Shown here piece after piece: positions 14,522-47,205 of a DNA stretch of 64,000 nucleotides. The stretch covers positions 1-64,000 of the forward strand of contig JAFLVG010000006.1 of assembly GCA_022508445.1 (NCBI GenBank). The letters are read 5' to 3'. The stretch is from Clostridiales bacterium (lineage in GTDB: Bacteria > Bacillota > Clostridia > Christensenellales > Pumilibacteraceae). The position numbers and the translations under genes were made by a program. How positions within the stretch are numbered: position 1 is the first letter of the stretch; each line of letters begins with the position of its first letter. A model generated the notes under the pieces. The model was not told the DNA's origin. It worked only from the letters and a program-made list of their open reading frames with translations, and ran no database searches.

Positions 14522-16726
14522 TTGATAACCGAATTCGATAAAAGCCGCATTGTCGCGCATTATAAACGTGAGTTCAAAGAGCAGCTTGCAAACAACAACT
14601 ACGAGAACGCGCTCGATTTGCTGTTGAAATTTCACGATGAAACGAACGATCCCGATTTTCACAAGGCGTGCGGCATGCTGTACTTGCTGATGTCGCAGGA
14701 CAGCGACGACAACGAGTTTTTGACTCTCGCGTTTCGCGAATTCATGATGTACGTGCGCGAGCATCCCGATTGCACGGAGGTATACCGCGACATACTCGCA
14801 ACCGCGCTGTTGCGTCGCGATCCGGTGTCAATTATCGAGTGCGCAGAATGGATCAGAAAAAGAGGTCAGAACGTAGATGCGATGATGTCCGAGATCGCCG
14901 AAACGGGTATCGATCCGTACTCCGGCGAATCGGAGTTTCTTTATCTCGACGATATGTTCGAGGCAGGTGAATTCGGCACGATAGATCCCATGTACGTCGC
15001 AAAAACAAGCGATGACGGTGAAGATGACGGCATACACGCCGAACAGGAAAAAAGATCAAAAATAATAGCTTTTCGCGGAGCACCGGAATCTCACAAGCGC
15101 GAAAGCGTATTGCCGCAAAACACCGAAAATACAACGGGGCATGGGAATATCGCAGGGCGCGCGCATCAAAGCGACGGCGAGCCTTTAAGCGACGACCTAT
15201 CAATTTCGCGCGATTCCGACAGCGAGGACAAGAACGAACTTTCGAGTGATGCGAACGTCGGGGACGTGATTGTCGAAATGCTTGAACGGTTTTGCGACGA
15301 GTTTGGTTTGGAAAGCAACGATTTGGACGTTGCCTCCGTCATTCAGTACGCACTCAAAGGACACAACAATACAGCGTTGCTTCCGCCCGAGCTTCGGGCA
15401 GGTATAGCGCTTCGCAATGCGGAGAAGCACTGCGAAAAGGGCGAGTTCGACGAGGCAATCGCCGAGCTTAATAAGATAGACAACGACGGCGGCAATGTTT
15501 ATTACTGTGCGGAATGTGTGCGCGCATATATATTTACCGAAACGAATAGGCTCGATGAAGCCGAAGCGTCGCTCAAAAATGCGCTTCGGATAAATCCGCA
15601 CGGTGCGCTTGCCGGCACGCTTATGTGCAATATTTGCGAAATCGAAAACAGATACGCCGAGATACCGCAAATTCTCAAAAACATCGATGTTGCGGACTTT
15701 ATCGATGCCGACCATGTGTACAGCGCAATGCGCATGGCGATGAAATATTGCGAAACGGACGACGTTCTCGATCTTGCCGAGGACTATATCGACGAGTACA
15801 ATATTTTGGATATTCGTCAGCTTTACGCTCAAATTCTGTACAACAGCGGCGACCGCGAAAATGCTGTCGAGGAGTTACGACTGTTGTCGCGCATATTCTA
15901 CGACGACTTCAACACGCAGTACTACTACTTGGCGGCAAAGTCGGGGATGGACGCCTTGCCGGAAGGCGAAGAAGTGCCGCAAAAAGTTCTCATCGGCATG
16001 GTCGATAACGTCACAAAGTTGGCAAGTTCCGAAAAACTAACCGACGACGTAATTGACAGCGACATTTTCAAGTATTCCCTCGAAGTGTTTTTGACGCTCG
16101 AATACCGTCAGGAAAAAAAGATATTGCTGTTGATGTTCGACGCTTTGAGAAAGCTCGCAAAAGAGATCAAGCTGGAACAAAGAATGCGCGACGCGCTTGT
16201 TTCGCCGTATGTAGAGCCTCTCGTAAAGGCGGTGATTTTGTCAGAGCTACTCATGCGCGGCGACGAGTTTTTGTTGACGATTTCGTACCGCCCGATATCT
16301 GACGATCAAGTATCTACGTTAGGCGACGGTTATTCGTCGGGCTGTTACACCGCGTATGCGTTCGTTCTTATACTTGCGGAAAAATCGGTTAAGCGGCTCA
16401 TTGAGACAGTAAAATCTATTCAGCCTGTCCTGTCTTGTTCGGAATTTTACGATCGGTCGGATTGTGATGTGAACAGCGCTTTGAATGTTGAGCGCGATAT
16501 TGCATACTACCTGATAAAGACAATCAAGCACTCGGCAGGTCGAGGCGAGTTTAAAGGCGACGACCGCTTGGAGTATGCGCTGGGATTTGCTTCAAAGGCC
16601 GCCGCAAACAAGGCGTATTCACGAATTGCCGCAAAGCTCGACGGAGCGGTTGCGGACGTTGTAGCCCCCGAAACGCCCGAAAAAAGAAAACACTCGAAAG
16701 GAGAAACATTAAATGAGCGACAATAA
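14522..16726 (+). CDS. TPR-type repeat protein, 734 aa
   Basis: A cytoplasmic, acidic helical-repeat protein. Repeats are seen in NYENALDLLLKFHDETNDP, KGEFDEAIAELNKIDND, RLDEAEASLKNALRINP and NSGDRENAVEELRLLSRIF, with an acidic disordered linker at about 160-240. The TTG start at 14522 follows the previous stop directly; no ATG fits better. The 14-base overlap with the next gene and shared strand suggest an operon of proteins that act together. A scaffold role is inference only. Confidence 0.65.
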   Translation: MITEFDKSRIVAHYKREFKEQLANNNYENALDLLLKFHDETNDPDFHKACGMLYLLMSQDSDDNEFLTLAFREFMMYVREHPDCTEVYRDILATALLRRDPVSIIECAEWIRKRGQNVDAMMSEIAETGIDPYSGESEFLYLDDMFEAGEFGTIDPMYVAKTSDDGEDDGIHAEQEKRSKIIAFRGAPESHKRESVLPQNTENTTGHGNIAGRAHQSDGEPLSDDLSISRDSDSEDKNELSSDANVGDVIVEMLERFCDEFGLESNDLDVASVIQYALKGHNNTALLPPELRAGIALRNAEKHCEKGEFDEAIAELNKIDNDGGNVYYCAECVRAYIFTETNRLDEAEASLKNALRINPHGALAGTLMCNICEIENRYAEIPQILKNIDVADFIDADHVYSAMRMAMKYCETDDVLDLAEDYIDEYNILDIRQLYAQILYNSGDRENAVEELRLLSRIFYDDFNTQYYYLAAKSGMDALPEGEEVPQKVLIGMVDNVTKLASSEKLTDDVIDSDIFKYSLEVFLTLEYRQEKKILLLMFDALRKLAKEIKLEQRMRDALVSPYVEPLVKAVILSELLMRGDEFLLTISYRPISDDQVSTLGDGYSSGCYTAYAFVLILAEKSVKRLIETVKSIQPVLSCSEFYDRSDCDVNSALNVERDIAYYLIKTIKHSAGRGEFKGDDRLEYALGFASKAAANKAYSRIAAKLDGAVADVVAPETPEKRKHSKGETLNERQ

Positions 16727-26481: not shown

Positions 26482-26712
26482 ATGGCAAGCCAAGAGATCG
26501 AGAAGTATTATGAACCGAGCGGTCGGGAACACACTGTCAGAAGCGAATGGATTTCGGGATGTTTCGTTATATTCGTCGATGGCGAGTTCTACGCAAACGC
26601 CGACGATCGACTGGACAAGCGCGAGACCATCGATGAGCTTGTTAAGTATAAGATGTGGTCGGCGACAAAACCGCTCAAAAGAAATACTCCGCTCGTGCCG
26701 GCAAGCAAGTGA
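26482..26712 (+). CDS. Hypothetical phage protein, 76 aa
   Basis: A strong AAAGGAGG site precedes the ATG. Mixed alpha/beta composition with ISGCFVIFVDGEFYANADDR and a basic C-terminus. Its last codons lie inside the terminator hairpin of a minus-strand RNA (26674-26751). No function recognised. Confidence 0.65.
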   Translation: MASQEIEKYYEPSGREHTVRSEWISGCFVIFVDGEFYANADDRLDKRETIDELVKYKMWSATKPLKRNTPLVPASK

Positions 26713-26751
26713 GCGGAGTAGAAGTAAACGGCTTGGGACAAGCCTTAAACT
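26674..26751 (-). ncRNA. Antisense small RNA C
   Basis: Minus-strand promoter TTGACT (26781-26786), 17 bases, TACAAT (26758-26763). The predicted RNA has a 5' hairpin GGCTTG/CAAGCC (26730-26735 with 26739-26744) and a 9-bp terminator stem ACTCCGCTC/GAGCGGAGT (26686-26694 with 26711-26719) followed by ATTTCTTTT. The terminator loop starts with ACUUG. Layout and loop motif match the RNAs at 45138 and 45440. It is antisense to the end of the 76-aa gene. Confidence 0.65.
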
Positions 26752-26834
26752 GTCCTAATTGTATCACAAATGCAAGAATCAGTCAATCATTCGGAGCTAT
26801 CCGACAACAAAAAATTCAATTAGGAGTAAAAATC

Positions 26835-34326: not shown

Positions 34327-34744
34327 AGTGAAAGAGATGATACAGTCCGCAAAATCAATCGAGCGTGAATGCGAACGATTTAAGCGCGAGATCAAGCAGC
34401 GGCGTGAGGAGCTTTTGAGCATCAAGAGCGTGATGGGCGGCAGCGAGCGCGTCATGAGCAGCGAGCAGATCTCCATGCCAGAGCGCGTGTATTTCAGCTT
34501 GGAAAAGCTGTATGTGCAATACAGCAATGTGCTTCAACAATTGAACGATAAGCGTAATGAAATCGAACAAGCGATATCCGCGCTCGATCCGATAGAACAG
34601 GAGATTGTGCGCGCGTGGATAAACGGCAAGACCGAAGAGCAGATTGGGGCGGCGGTCGGGTATTCGGGTAGGCATGTGCGGCGTGTTAAGAGGGCGATTC
34701 TTATTAAATTGTCAAATCTTAAAACTTGTCCGCCCATGTCCTAA
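34310..34744 (+). CDS. Phage late-gene regulator, sigma-region-4/ArpU-like
   Basis: 144 residues from ATG 34310, which has AAGGAGGG upstream. A coiled-coil N-terminus (about 1-90) is followed by a sigma-70 region-4-like HTH: DPIEQEIVRAWINGKTEEQI then GAAVGYSGRHVRRVKRAI. Proteins of this kind sit just before the packaging genes in Firmicutes phages and switch on late transcription. The promoter at 34792 may be its target. Confidence 0.75.
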   Translation: MATTDEVKEMIQSAKSIERECERFKREIKQRREELLSIKSVMGGSERVMSSEQISMPERVYFSLEKLYVQYSNVLQQLNDKRNEIEQAISALDPIEQEIVRAWINGKTEEQIGAAVGYSGRHVRRVKRAILIKLSNLKTCPPMS

Positions 34745-34780
34745 TAATCCGTGATATAATGGTAGTGTTCAATATTACGC

Positions 34781-34839
34781 AAAGGCACTACTTGACACGG
34801 CGTGGCGGCTGTGATATACTTCAAGCAGTGCCTTTTTGT
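34781..34839 (+). promoter_or_regulatory. Promoter nested in a 15-bp inverted repeat with T-run
   Basis: AAAGGCACTACTTGA (34781-34795) pairs with TCAAGCAGTGCCTTT (34821-34835; 14 of 15) and is followed by TT, so RNA from upstream can form a terminator. Inside is TTGACA (34792-34797), 17 bases, TATACT (34815-34820), a good promoter for the packaging operon. The -35 lies partly in the left arm, so structure and promoter cannot be separated. Confidence 0.75.
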
Positions 34840-44288: not shown

Positions 44289-44570
44289 TCGTCGAATATT
44301 CGACGAGTAGTCTGTGAAGTTTCGATAATTACTCGATGAGGACTCGACGAGTATTCGACGAGTATTCGGTTATATGTCGTTGAGTTGTCGTCGAAACCGA
44401 AACCAAAAATAAACCGAAAATAACCAAACTGAAACCGAAAATATGCTATAATGGGGATTTTAAGCAAAAAATGGTGAAATAACCATTGAAAAACAACTAA
44501 AAACGCCCATTCATTTCTCAAAAACCATTCGACGAGGGCTCGTCGAATACTCGTCGAATACTCGTCGAAG
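44289..44570. repeat. Second set of 11-bp iterons
   Basis: Units: TCGTCGAATAT and TCGACGAGTAG (44289-44310); TCGATGAGGAC and TCGACGAGTAT twice (44333-44365); TCGACGAGGGC, TCGTCGAATAC twice and TCGTCGAAG (44529-44570). The junction TCGTCGAATATTCGACGA is a perfect 18-bp palindrome, so both orientations of one site occur. Confidence 0.75.
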
Positions 44571-44900
44571 AAAGAAGAAAGAAAAAAGAGAAAAGAACCA
44601 AAAGAGAATAAAGAAAGAAGAAAGAATTAAAACACACACAACGCATATACGCGCGTACGCGCGCGAAGGTGTGGATGTTATTTCGGTAAAAAAGAGTAAA
44701 CCATACTAAAAAGCAATAAGATTGGTGTTAATGTTACCATGTATCTATGCAAAATTGACAGAATATAACTTATTTGCCACGAAAATGATTTTTTCGAGGG
44801 TTTCTCGTTAAGACAGTTTCGTGTCATACGGGCTAAATTTGAGCAAATTTCGGCAATGTGAAAAATCAGTAAAATTTTTTAAAAAAGTTTGCAAAAACGC

Positions 44901-44945
44901 TTGACATTTGTACGTTCAAAAGTGTATTATGAATGTACGAAAGTT
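44901..44945 (+). promoter_or_regulatory. Promoter and operator of the first RHH gene
   Basis: TTGACA (44901-44906) and TATTAT (44925-44930), 18 bases apart. TTGTACGTTC in the spacer is repeated inverted as GAATGTACGA (8 of 10), a likely operator. The GTACG core resembles the CI operators. Confidence 0.65.
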
Positions 44946-44958
44946 AGGGAGGTATATT

Positions 44959-45147
44959 TTGGTACAACGCAAAAGAATGGGTAGACCCACATTAGACCCT
45001 AAGGTAATGCGTAAAGACATTAGACTTTCACGTTTAGACTGTCAGAAACTTGAATATTGTATAAGGGAGACAGGATTAACGGGTAATGAAATTATACGTA
45101 AGGGAATTGATAGGGTTTACCAAGAATTACAAGAATTAAAAAAATAA
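44959..45147 (+). CDS. Ribbon-helix-helix repressor-like protein 1, 62 aa
   Basis: Starts at TTG 44959 with GGGAGG upstream; a longer frame runs back through the promoter. It reads MVQRKRMGRPTLDPKVMRKD, then IRLSRLDCQKLEYCIRETG, then LTGNEIIRKGIDRVYQEL: a basic arm, a beta strand and two helices, the Arc/CopG pattern. It likely binds the inverted repeat in its own promoter. The antisense RNA A ends just inside its 3' end. Confidence 0.7.
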   Translation: MVQRKRMGRPTLDPKVMRKDIRLSRLDCQKLEYCIRETGLTGNEIIRKGIDRVYQELQELKK

Positions 45148-45208
45148 GGGTTACCGCTCACAACCGTGACAAGTTCAGCGACAACCCAACCGACAGACAA
45201 AGTCCGTC
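45138..45208 (-). ncRNA. Antisense small RNA A
   Basis: Minus-strand promoter TTGACA (45238-45243), 17 bases, TACACT (45215-45220). The RNA of about 70 nt has a 5' hairpin (GACGGAC/GTCTGTC type), then GGTT, then a terminator stem GGGTT-CGCT / AGCG-AACCC (45148-45158 with 45177-45187) and a perfect U-run (TTATTTTTTT). The loop contains GAACUUGUC. It is antisense to the region between the two RHH genes. Confidence 0.7.
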
Positions 45209-45264
45209 TAAATAAGTGTACCATAGATTGCTTTGTTTGTCAACAACAAACTTTCGTCAAACGC

Positions 45265-45293
45265 TTGACATACTACAAATATTGTAGTATAAT
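45265..45293 (+). promoter_or_regulatory. Promoter/operator of the second RHH gene
   Basis: TTGACA (45265-45270), 17 bases, TATAAT (45288-45293), both consensus. The spacer is an operator-like palindrome, ACTACAAATATTGTAGT, so the RHH protein probably represses itself and the genes behind it. Confidence 0.8.
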
Positions 45294-45316
45294 GGTAGTA
45301 AGTAGGAGGTAACACA

Positions 45317-45448
45317 ATGAATGATACAGCTCTTAATATTAAGATTCCGAAAGAACTGTATGACCGATTAAAGCAAGAGGCAGATAAAAAGAATATATCT
45401 TTGGCTTCTTTGGTTCGGTTGATATGTTCCGAATATCTTGATAAATAA
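45317..45448 (+). CDS. Ribbon-helix-helix repressor-like protein 2, 43 aa
   Basis: AGGAGG precedes the ATG. It reads MNDTALNIKIPKELYDRLKQ, then EADKKNISLASLVRLICSEY: a short beta strand (ALNIKIP) followed by two helices, the CopG/Arc fold size. It likely binds the palindrome in the promoter at 45265. Antisense RNA B overlaps its last codons. Confidence 0.78.
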   Translation: MNDTALNIKIPKELYDRLKQEADKKNISLASLVRLICSEYLDK

Positions 45449-45513
45449 AGAGAGGGAGCGCGCCAAGTTTCGCAGACACAACGCACTCCCAACCGACAAG
45501 AAAAACTCTTGCT
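45440..45513 (-). ncRNA. Antisense small RNA B
   Basis: Minus-strand promoter TTGACA (45544-45549), 18 bases, TACAAT (45520-45525). The RNA has a 5' hairpin CAAGA/TCTTG, then GTCGGTT, then a terminator stem (45454-45462 with 45482-45490, one mismatch) and a U-rich tail UCUCUUUAUUUAU. The loop contains GAAACUUGG. It covers the leader between RHH 2 and the antirepressor, 60 bases before that start codon, so it could act on antirepressor mRNA as sar RNA does in P22. Confidence 0.7.
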
Positions 45514-45574
45514 AATAAAATTGTATCATAAGTAAGAGCTTCTTGTCAATCACAAATTTTCAAGGAGTTTTATT

Positions 45575-46303
45575 ATGTCAAATTTAACAGTATTTAACAA
45601 TCAACAGTTCGGGGAAGTTAGAGCGACAGAAATCAATGGCGAACCGTGGTTCGTACTTGCGGATGTGTGCCGCGTATTGGAAATTGGTAACACGCGCAAT
45701 GTAACGCGTCGGTTGGACATAGATGAAAAGGGTGTCCACGAAATGGACACCCTTGGTGGTAAACAAAATTTAACGGTTATAAACGAAAGCGGTCTTTATT
45801 CTGTCATTCTTCGCTCTGACAAGCCGCAAGCGAAACCGTTTCGTAAGTGGGTAACTTCCGAAGTTCTGCCTACAATTCGTAAAACAGGCGAGTACAAAGC
45901 CAAGCCTTCCGACGAGCTACGCCGCAAGAACACCGAGATACGCGAGCAGAACGCCAAAATTCGCACGGCACAGCTTTTATACAAGATAGCCGACAAAACG
46001 GACACAGACTACAAACAAGTCCTACACGCGCGAATAACGCAGCTTTTGACGGGCGAGTATCTTTTGCCGTTGCCGGCTGTAAACGAGCGCACATACAGCG
46101 CGACGGAGATAGGCGAGCGCTTGGGCGTAAGTGCACGCCGCATAGGCATGCTTGCTAATGCTCACGGGCTTAAATCTGCGGAGTTCGGCAAGTATTTTTA
46201 CGATAAGGCAAAGACGGCGGACAAACAAGTGGAAACATTTCGCTACTACGAAAAATCGGTGGACGTGTTCCGCTCGCTCATAAGCGCGGAGGTGGCAGTA
46301 TGA
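45575..46303 (+). CDS. Phage antirepressor (Bro-N domain + C-terminal ANT-like domain)
   Basis: 242 residues. The Bro-N domain (1-110) is clear: GEPWFVLADVCRVLEIGN, then NESGLYSVILRSDKPQAKPF, then RKWVTSEVLPTIRKTGEY. A coiled-coil linker follows, then a DNA-binding-like C-terminus (YSATEIGERLGVSARRIGML). Such proteins bind or titrate CI repressors and trigger induction. CAAGGAG site. Its stop overlaps the start of the S24-like gene. Confidence 0.92.
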   Translation: MSNLTVFNNQQFGEVRATEINGEPWFVLADVCRVLEIGNTRNVTRRLDIDEKGVHEMDTLGGKQNLTVINESGLYSVILRSDKPQAKPFRKWVTSEVLPTIRKTGEYKAKPSDELRRKNTEIREQNAKIRTAQLLYKIADKTDTDYKQVLHARITQLLTGEYLLPLPAVNERTYSATEIGERLGVSARRIGMLANAHGLKSAEFGKYFYDKAKTADKQVETFRYYEKSVDVFRSLISAEVAV

Positions 46304-46665
46304 TGGCTGTGGTCGATCAACGGCAAGATATTGTTCCCACACAATTCGGGAATGCCGACGCGTCAGAATACTTCTCTTTGAAGGTCGTTGATGACGGAAT
46401 GTCACCTACTATTTTGCAAAGCGATGAGATAGTGTTTCACAGACAACAAACGGTCGATAATGGAGAATTAGCCGTCATAACCATAGGCGACGAAAAGAAC
46501 GCAATATTGCGGCGCGTTTATTACGGTACTGACGGTACACTCTTATTGACGACTGACAATACGCAGGTCGCACCGATGATATTCGACAGTGACGAAGCAA
46601 GGCAAGTACATATTCACGGTAAAGTCGTATATCTCGTGCGTGAGATAACACATAACTGTTTCTAA
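46300..46665 (+). CDS. S24/LexA-like C-terminal domain without HTH, catalytic residues lost
   Basis: 121 residues (start 46300 or 46303, both ATG). It aligns with the C-terminal domain of the CI repressor of the same prophage (IVFHRQQTVDNGELAVITIG against IVFCRKQSMVDNGDIAVVLI). The nucleophile Ser in GDSM is Gly (VDDGMSP, G33) and the general-base Lys in LKRV is Arg (ILRRV, R71). No DNA-binding domain is present. The ATGATG overlap couples it to the antirepressor. I infer a dimerisation decoy for CI or a related repressor. Confidence 0.8.
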   Translation: MMAVVDQRQDIVPTQFGNADASEYFSLKVVDDGMSPTILQSDEIVFHRQQTVDNGELAVITIGDEKNAILRRVYYGTDGTLLLTTDNTQVAPMIFDSDEARQVHIHGKVVYLVREITHNCF

Positions 46666-46729: not shown

Positions 46730-46755
46730 AAAGGACGATTACTCGTCCTTTTTTA
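46730..46755 (-). terminator. Terminator of the minus-strand membrane gene
   Basis: AAAGGACGA/TCGTCCTTT stem (46730-46738 with 46743-46751) overlaps the stop codon at 46739. It works in both directions because A- and T-runs flank it. Confidence 0.75.
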
Positions 46756-47155
46756 ATTCGTCAAGCTCGGCTTGGAGCTTTTCTATGCGTTGTTGTTTTG
46801 CGACAGCGGCTTGCTCCGCTTTTGCGGCGGCGCGTTGTTCCTTGCGTGCTTTGAACTTGTTTTTAAGCGACTTAAATATGGGGAAATCTTTGATTGCGAT
46901 TACTACCATAACTGCAATGTCTGCGATTGCGGCGATAAGCATGGGAATGGCGTACGCGAGAGCCTTGTCTATTTGAGCGTTATAATATTTTAGGTCAGTT
47001 GAATAATCAAGGTTTGGATGATTAAGAATAAGACCGTTTATTTCTTCTATATACTCGTTCATTGCTGCAACATGTTTAAGGAACGGACAACAGCATGCAA
47101 TTAGCACGGCAAATATAAAGGCCAAAAGTATTTCAATAACAATTGTTTTTTTCAT
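46739..47155 (-). CDS. Membrane protein with coiled-coil tail (possible lysogenic conversion gene)
   Basis: 138 residues. The first helix (IVIEILLAFIFAVLIACCCP) and a second (AIPMLIAAIADIAVMVVIAI) flank an outer loop; the C-terminus is a charged coiled coil (FKARKEQRAAAKAEQAAVAK). A promoter TTGACA, 17 bases, TAAAAT lies so close that the transcript would start at or just before the ATG, so translation is nearly leaderless. It stands alone against the late genes, the usual position of superinfection-exclusion genes. Function not shown. Confidence 0.65.
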   Translation of the reverse strand: MKKTIVIEILLAFIFAVLIACCCPFLKHVAAMNEYIEEINGLILNHPNLDYSTDLKYYNAQIDKALAYAIPMLIAAIADIAVMVVIAIKDFPIFKSLKNKFKARKEQRAAAKAEQAAVAKQQRIEKLQAELDELKKDE

Positions 47156-47205
47156 AATATCGTAATTTTAACAAAAAATTTTTTATTTGTCAAGGAGGAC
47201 AAATT

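Follow-up and report, generated by a model that had tools for sequence, protein, structure and literature searches.

RHH genes followed by antisense RNAs in phages and chromosomes of Bacillota: a probable two-layer lock with a leader switch

Two short antisense RNAs of a prophage, which we call A and B, belong, as judged from sequence, to a large RNA family that is absent from Rfam. Each follows the gene of a small DNA-binding protein of the ribbon-helix-helix (RHH) type, a repressor, and the pairings available to the leader of the next gene indicate that such RNAs flip the neighbouring mRNA into a form that hides the start of that gene. We describe here, by computation from the sequence, the anatomy of these RNAs, their recurrence, two competing locus-specific pairings and their gene context. 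The best explanation for them, with a probability of roughly 0.7, is a two-layer lock with an antisense-driven leader switch. The new result is the predicted mutual exclusivity of this switch: one stretch of the leader (P') would pair either with a second stretch (H', the ON state) or with the ribosome site (the OFF state). A search of the open-access literature, with subscription journals outside its scope, found no description of this arrangement.

The window, i.e., the whole stretch of 64,000 nucleotides that was analysed, carries a prophage on a contig of a Clostridia-type assembly (1.78 Mb, 45 contigs). Profile searches placed genes for a serine recombinase, an Abi_2 protein and a CI-like repressor at 22-25 kb, and capsid and tail genes at about 35-50 kb were assigned by position and size and in part tested. 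The two RNAs lie among the structural genes, in the order RHH1, RNA A, RHH2, RNA B, ant and Peptidase_S24:

44901-44939, plus strand: RHH1 promoter TTGACA-18-TATTAT, with an inverted repeat, GTACGTTCA/TGAATGTAC, at 44910-44938 (putative RHH1 operator)
44959-45147, plus strand: RHH1, 62 aa, phage repressor-like, TTG start (phrog_876, E 6e-10)
45138-45208, minus strand: antisense RNA A, about 71 nt, two hairpins, with its terminator over the RHH1 stop codon and a homologue in locus L002
45215-45243, minus strand: RNA A promoter TTGACA-17-TACACT (-35 box at 45243-45238, -10 box at 45220-45215)
45265-45293, plus strand: RHH2 promoter, a perfect TTGACA-17-TATAAT, with the palindrome TACTACAAATATTGTAGTA (45271-45289) between its boxes (putative operator)
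45317-45448, plus strand: RHH2, 43 aa, Arc-like (PF07878, 29.3 bits)
about 45438-45513, minus strand: antisense RNA B, about 76 nt, two hairpins, with a terminator that reaches the RHH2 stop codon
45520-45549, minus strand: RNA B promoter TTGACA-18-TACAAT (-35 box at 45549-45544, -10 box at 45525-45520)
45575-46303, plus strand: ant, Bro-N antirepressor, 242 aa, the target gene of unit B (PF02498, E 3e-26; phrog_130, E 5.5e-58)
46300-46665, plus strand: Peptidase_S24/CI-like protein, 121 aa (PF00717), overlapping the end of ant; L002 keeps the same order

The reading of this region as an immunity locus, made in a preliminary description from the sequence alone, agrees with the profile matches: RHH2 is Arc-like (phrog_582), the next gene encodes an antirepressor (phrog_130), and a Peptidase_S24-type gene follows. 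Homologues of RHH1 with about 54-61% identity occur in L002 and L032, both accompanied by the same antisense RNA. At the DNA level, a similarity search with the 44.9-45.6 kb region gave no phage match, and only chance matches in 74 genomes of the family.

Several other features surround the locus. The two RHH promoters have 13 identical bases (AAACGCTTGACAT, at 44895-44907 and 45259-45271), a possible trace of the insertion of a second unit. Just upstream of the RHH1 operon, at 44289-44570, an 11-base sequence (TCGACGAGTAT) recurs in clusters, in direct and inverted orientation and in helical register; these repeats may be iterons or an array of protein-binding sites. Directly after the ant and S24 genes, a minus-strand gene (46739-47155) oriented against all of its neighbours, with a promoter of its own (TTGACA-17-TAAAAT at 47193), encodes a putative membrane and coiled-coil protein of 138 aa, which matched no family at curated cut-offs. 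Further away, at 34719-34815, a strong terminator-like hairpin (GGCACTACTTG...CAAGCAGTGCC, then TTTTT) holds a complete TTGACA-17-TATACT promoter in its loop.

The preliminary description had proposed that the regions 45138-45243 and 45440-45549 share one design on the minus strand, and we found the promoters, 5' hairpins, common motif and terminators as described. RNA A starts with the hairpin GACGGAC-ttt-GTCTGTC, followed by CGGTTGGG and a terminator with a GAACTTG apex, and ends with TTATTTTTTT at about 45138. RNA B has CAAGA-gtttt-TCTTG, TCGGTTGGG and a terminator with GAAACTTG, and ends at about 45438; it directly precedes ant. Both RNAs carry GTCGGTTGGG between the 5' hairpin and the terminator, and ACTTG in the terminator apex. 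Their predicted folding energies are -24.9 kcal/mol (z -3.8) for A and -25.5 kcal/mol (z -2.7) for B. The two promoters rank among the five best sigma-70 matches within 10 kb, and we infer that both RNAs are transcribed. A search of the window with Rfam at the gathering thresholds gave no match, either to these RNAs or elsewhere.

A third copy had been suggested at 26.67-26.79 kb:

26680-26786, minus strand: element C, consisting of a promoter and a pair of hairpins; it is antisense to the end of an unnamed gene

The promoter and the two hairpins are present, but element C lacks GTCGGTTGGG, the RHH neighbour and the pairing of H' with P' (H':P'). Its H':P' duplex reaches -5.3 kcal/mol, against -20.3 for B and -17.0 for A. 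The ribosome site at element C has a possible pairing partner in a stretch at the 5' end of the RNA itself. Element C is thus at best a cousin of A and B, and may be either a relative with other wiring or a look-alike.

To survey the family we gathered loci by the RHH protein profile, ignoring the RNA, from viral contigs, 84,980 genomes and several hundred whole genomes. An antisense promoter was counted when it scored at least 10.5 of 12 in an interval of 75-175 nt from a point 30 nt inside the RHH gene. Such promoters follow 62% of 134 distinct RHH genes, compared with 1.0% of dinucleotide shuffles and 3.3% of 480 other long open reading frames; the remaining 38% of these related RHH genes missed the cut-off. 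Recurrence behind related RHH genes excludes chance as the origin of the antisense promoters. Their position is narrowly set, with a median of 75 nt (5-95%: 63-83) between the end of the -10 box and the RHH stop codon. The stems of A and B differ while keeping their pairing, which had been read as covariation, and the homologues in other elements bear this out: about 86 RNAs match in structure with stems largely unrelated in sequence. They occupy the corresponding position after related RHH genes, both in phages and in chromosomes.

Removal of near-duplicates left 67 RNAs, of which 65 entered the tests of hairpins, apex and H':P' pairing. The common plan comprises an A/T-rich start (often ATTTA), a 5' hairpin, a linker and a terminator, with the two hairpins spanning a median of 82 nt from the -10 box. 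Both hairpins are more stable than expected (mean z of -2.7 for the 5' hairpin and -4.9 for the terminator), and about seven of the nine bases 3' of the terminator stem are T. A YUUR motif occurs at the apex of 48 of the 65 terminator loops, against 21.3 +/- 3.5 in the null, when the central 14-mers are scored; with minimum free energy (MFE) loops instead, the YUNR signal is weak. In three loci (L074, L101 and L116) it is the sense strand that has the motif, in its longer form (UUUGG or UUURG). U-turn motifs of this kind are typical of antisense recognition loops and can lie in either RNA (PMC4485353).

The stems were not brought into register when 28 of the RNAs were aligned with MAFFT, so the leader stem was examined in place of a covariance model. 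A DNA pattern derived from the 5' hairpin matched only L002 and one unrelated sequence. L002, from IMG/VR, is the closest relative of the locus and has one RHH gene and one A-like RNA, followed directly by ant and S24. The window therefore has an extra RHH-RNA unit between A and ant. Tandem units are common among the collected loci. In L092 (G706:C12:713100-716900), six consecutive RHH genes, two of them with an antisense RNA, adjoin an FMN riboswitch, and the genome has 16 RHH-profile matches. Two relatives, L002 (3261-3339, 53.8 bits) and L024 (966-1045, 60 bits), have another RNA on the plus strand, skipping-rope (RF02924), which precedes the RHH gene by a few hundred bases; the Rfam search did not find this RNA in the window.

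We propose that the unit consists of two genes, one for an autoregulated RHH repressor and a short one for the antisense RNA, which sits inside the next gene's leader. Arc-like RHH proteins are autoregulatory, and antirepressors act on prophage repressors. In the first layer the RHH protein would hold down transcription; in the second, the antisense RNA would hold down the residual transcript. From 5' to 3', the sense leader contains T', H', P' and the ribosome site of the target gene, where P' is the sense transcript of the antisense promoter, H' the sense copy of the antisense RNA's 5' hairpin and T' the complement of its terminator hairpin. For unit B these are:

45455-45490, plus strand: T', sense hairpin complementary to the B terminator (predicted fold)
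45495-45512, plus strand: H', sense copy of the B 5' hairpin, mimicking the ant ribosome site (H' with P', -20.3 kcal/mol)
45520-45549, plus strand: P', sense copy of the RNA B promoter and anti-Shine-Dalgarno/anti-AUG strand
45535-45571, plus strand: OFF hairpin, AGAGCUUCUUG (45535-45545) with CAAGGAGUUUU (45561-45571), -10.9 kcal/mol

When the antisense RNA is absent, H' and P' would be paired and the ribosome site open. RNA B would contact T' first; once it covers T' and H', P' would be freed and would fold onto the Shine-Dalgarno and AUG, blocking translation. The OFF hairpin is predicted to hide the ant Shine-Dalgarno, and the sequence 3' of its stem is U-rich. A U-run is often found 3' of the OFF stem, so that transcription might be terminated too, as in pT181. 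Unit B would thereby silence ant, whose product would inactivate the prophage repressor, and the expected outcome is a stable lysogeny with superinfection immunity in trans. RNA-RNA binding, repression and these roles in lysogeny and immunity are the parts of the scheme that we infer.

The two competing pairings are specific to each locus. Cognate H' and P' form duplexes with a mean of -18.3 kcal/mol, compared with -9.1 for permuted pairs (z -21.8), and in 57 of 65 cases the cognate partner is within the top 10% of its own row. P' is likewise complementary to the ribosome site (Shine-Dalgarno and start) of the gene that follows, with -13.45 kcal/mol against -9.79 (z -9.6, n=52). A median of 74% of the P' bases are common to both pairings, and H':P' is the stronger in 88% of the loci. 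When duplexes were scored with sequences that had been reversed or complemented, or with other segments of the RNA, z ranged from -0.2 to -3.7. Some of these controls depart somewhat from the null (z about -2 to -3.7), so a minor share of the signal is due to base composition. The earlier proposal of a small RNA family acting on plus-strand mRNAs of the immunity locus is supported by these results, as the locus-specific pairing makes the plus-strand leader the plausible target.

Blocking the antisense-target stretch in silico raises the cost of opening the Shine-Dalgarno and AUG from 4.2 to 9.9 kcal/mol (52 loci, p 4e-10), whereas with P' shuffled it goes from 4.8 to 5.1. For unit B the cost rises from 3.0 to 12.5 kcal/mol, which none of 100 P' shuffles reaches. 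Held-out loci, fetched afterwards from other parts of the phylum, behave alike: H' with P' gives z -5.0 (n=11), P' with the ribosome site z -3.0 (n=7), and the opening cost goes from 3.4 to 12.3 in seven out of seven. Among 11 related leaders, the H':P' stem is 92.9% paired, compared with 28-49% for slid partners; the helix contains G-U pairs and both sides have changed at 5 pairs. The antisense promoters often contain TTGAAA, and ATGG before the -10 box, because the ribosome site has TTGAAAGGA and AUGG, of which they are the mirror images. The fraction of T in the spacer that follows the Shine-Dalgarno is high (0.49, compared with 0.23 in other genes), and 34% have a run of at least four T there, against 3% (p 1e-6). 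Hence, termination may accompany the translational block.

Unit A, which is not directly before ant, keeps the H':P' pairing (-17.0 kcal/mol), but the promoter and ribosome site of RHH2 come next. Blocking has a small effect there (+0.9 kcal/mol, 13 of 100 shuffles). L002 has a single unit, a relative of A, and the response of its leader is weak too (7.0 to 8.5 kcal/mol).

The strongest competitor of the leader switch, though an unlikely one, is a simple cis-antisense RNA like sar of P22 or RNAII of pMV158, where the leader duplex itself blocks translation or triggers decay and no conformational switch is needed. The gene order and the position of the terminator match those of P22 arc-sar-ant, and RNAII of pMV158 lies immediately upstream of the repB start signals (PMC4485353). 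Such an RNA leaves unexplained the locus-specific pairings of P' with H' and with the ribosome site, both of which are absent in P22. The family RNAs fall about 50 nt short of the ribosome site and so cannot cover it. A very improbable alternative has the RNA acting in trans, its loops pairing directly with ribosome sites of the locus. Pairing of RNA loops with the next ribosome site was our first idea, but a test on 60 loci gave no better than p 0.016, and the P' switch took its place. There is weak complementarity between the 5' hairpin and its cognate ribosome site (z -3.5), with single striking cases such as L024, but this follows from the mimicry of the ribosome site by H' and falls far short of that of P' (-9.8 against -13.45), while the terminator loop has none (z -0.2).

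Equally improbable is transcriptional interference by the antisense promoter, with the RNA as a by-product. Strong convergent promoters within an operon would fit this, yet interference has no need of a conserved two-hairpin RNA, of an apex of the U-turn type or of leader pairings. The least probable reading has H', P' and the ribosome-site region bound by a protein as inverted repeats in DNA. They necessarily are inverted repeats at that level, but their sequences vary between loci, the H':P' helix contains G-U pairs, and the repeats of A and B are unlike the palindromes in the RHH promoters. We thus favour the two-layer lock with a leader switch.

The type of target gene depends on the genome: antirepressors in phages, DUF6809 in chromosomes. 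Among 90 downstream proteins we found the antirepressor domains Bro-N (16), ANT (7), ORF6N (4) and Rha (2), and 14 DUF6809 proteins; defence-system profiles gave a few weak candidate matches among the downstream genes. In the Streptococcus phages Javan367 and Javan336 the RHH gene is followed by about 120 nt, a small gene and an antirepressor, and in phiCDIF1296T of C. difficile by about 120 nt and a KilAC antirepressor. The satellite phage Javan751 also has the layout. Some chromosomes have 13-16 RHH-profile matches, often with DUF6809 behind. In L093, L095, L104, L118 and others, DUF6809 (PF20648) lies behind chromosomal RHH-antisense units, sometimes with no phage genes adjoining.

One might go further and suppose, at somewhat under even odds, that an unnamed and very widespread class of portable gene locks guards phage antirepressors and chromosomal DUF6809 genes. 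Each lock would comprise an RHH repressor and an antisense attenuator whose promoter serves as the anti-ribosome-site strand, with up to 13-16 copies per chromosome. DUF6809, which would stand out as a tightly locked gene family, may then consist of harmful or mobile-element proteins, and stacked immunity specificities could arise from tandem units. The control of antirepressors is little studied in Bacillota, and the scheme gives a cheap and concrete prediction of which prophage genes are held off by an RNA. It would also offer gene circuits many natural, apparently orthogonal antisense switches. It would be an unusually compact design for a single stretch of DNA to be a promoter when read on one strand and an anti-ribosome-site when read on the other.

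The arrangement links two textbook systems, P22 arc-sar-ant and the pT181 attenuator, in phages and chromosomes of Bacillota. Unit B and its relatives have the layout of P22 immI (arc-sar-ant): an RHH repressor, a two-hairpin antisense RNA over the RHH stop codon, and an antirepressor next. The palindrome between the -35 and -10 boxes of the RHH2 promoter resembles Pant/O-arc of P22. The P22 sar RNA (annotated at 15021-15090, with ant from 15091) begins at the start codon of ant and overlies its ribosome site (PMC7968456), whereas RNA B begins about 50 nt before the Shine-Dalgarno of ant and leaves the ribosome site uncovered. The P22 leader lacks both pairings of P' (-1.5 kcal/mol with H' and -1.1 with the ribosome site). 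Searches with the sar model (RF00262) matched P22 only (97.8 bits) and none of 17 other loci at E up to 1. The copG-RNAII-repB region of pMV158 also combines an RHH repressor with an intergenic antisense RNA in the dual control of the next gene (PMC4485353), but RNAII has 48 nt and one hairpin where the family RNAs have two, and the candidate antisense promoter is at or beyond the repB start, a geometry that differs from that of the family.

The ctRNA/repC attenuator of pT181 (RF00242) likewise has a two-hairpin antisense RNA, with a AAACUUUGGU apex. Its antisense RNA captures the pre-emptor, and the resulting terminator also contains the repC ribosome site (PMC5435934). The leader toggles between pre-emptor pairing (ON) and a ribosome-site hairpin followed by U (OFF), and the antisense RNA drives the OFF state; the family leaders are predicted to form the same mutually exclusive hairpins. 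For pT181, the same computation gave -21.1 (pre-emptor) and -15.2 (ribosome site), values in the range of the family. RF00242 stayed below its gathering score of 56 on every family locus tested and had no match in the window, but its best alignments (37.5 and 33.7 bits, below threshold) spanned the whole model and fell on the predicted RNAs of L071 and L119, which share the AAACUUUGGU apex with the pT181 ctRNA. The anti-ribosome-site strand of pT181 is located outside the antisense promoter, and its partner is a copy of the terminator stem; in the RHH family this strand is the antisense promoter itself, and the pre-emptor is a copy of the 5' hairpin. The family also differs in its surroundings: its units are preceded by an RHH repressor gene, and they target an antirepressor or DUF6809 gene where pT181 targets rep. 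A phage has apparently taken up a plasmid-style RNA switch to keep a 'wake-up' gene off, with the logic of the pT181 attenuator in the layout of P22 arc-sar-ant.
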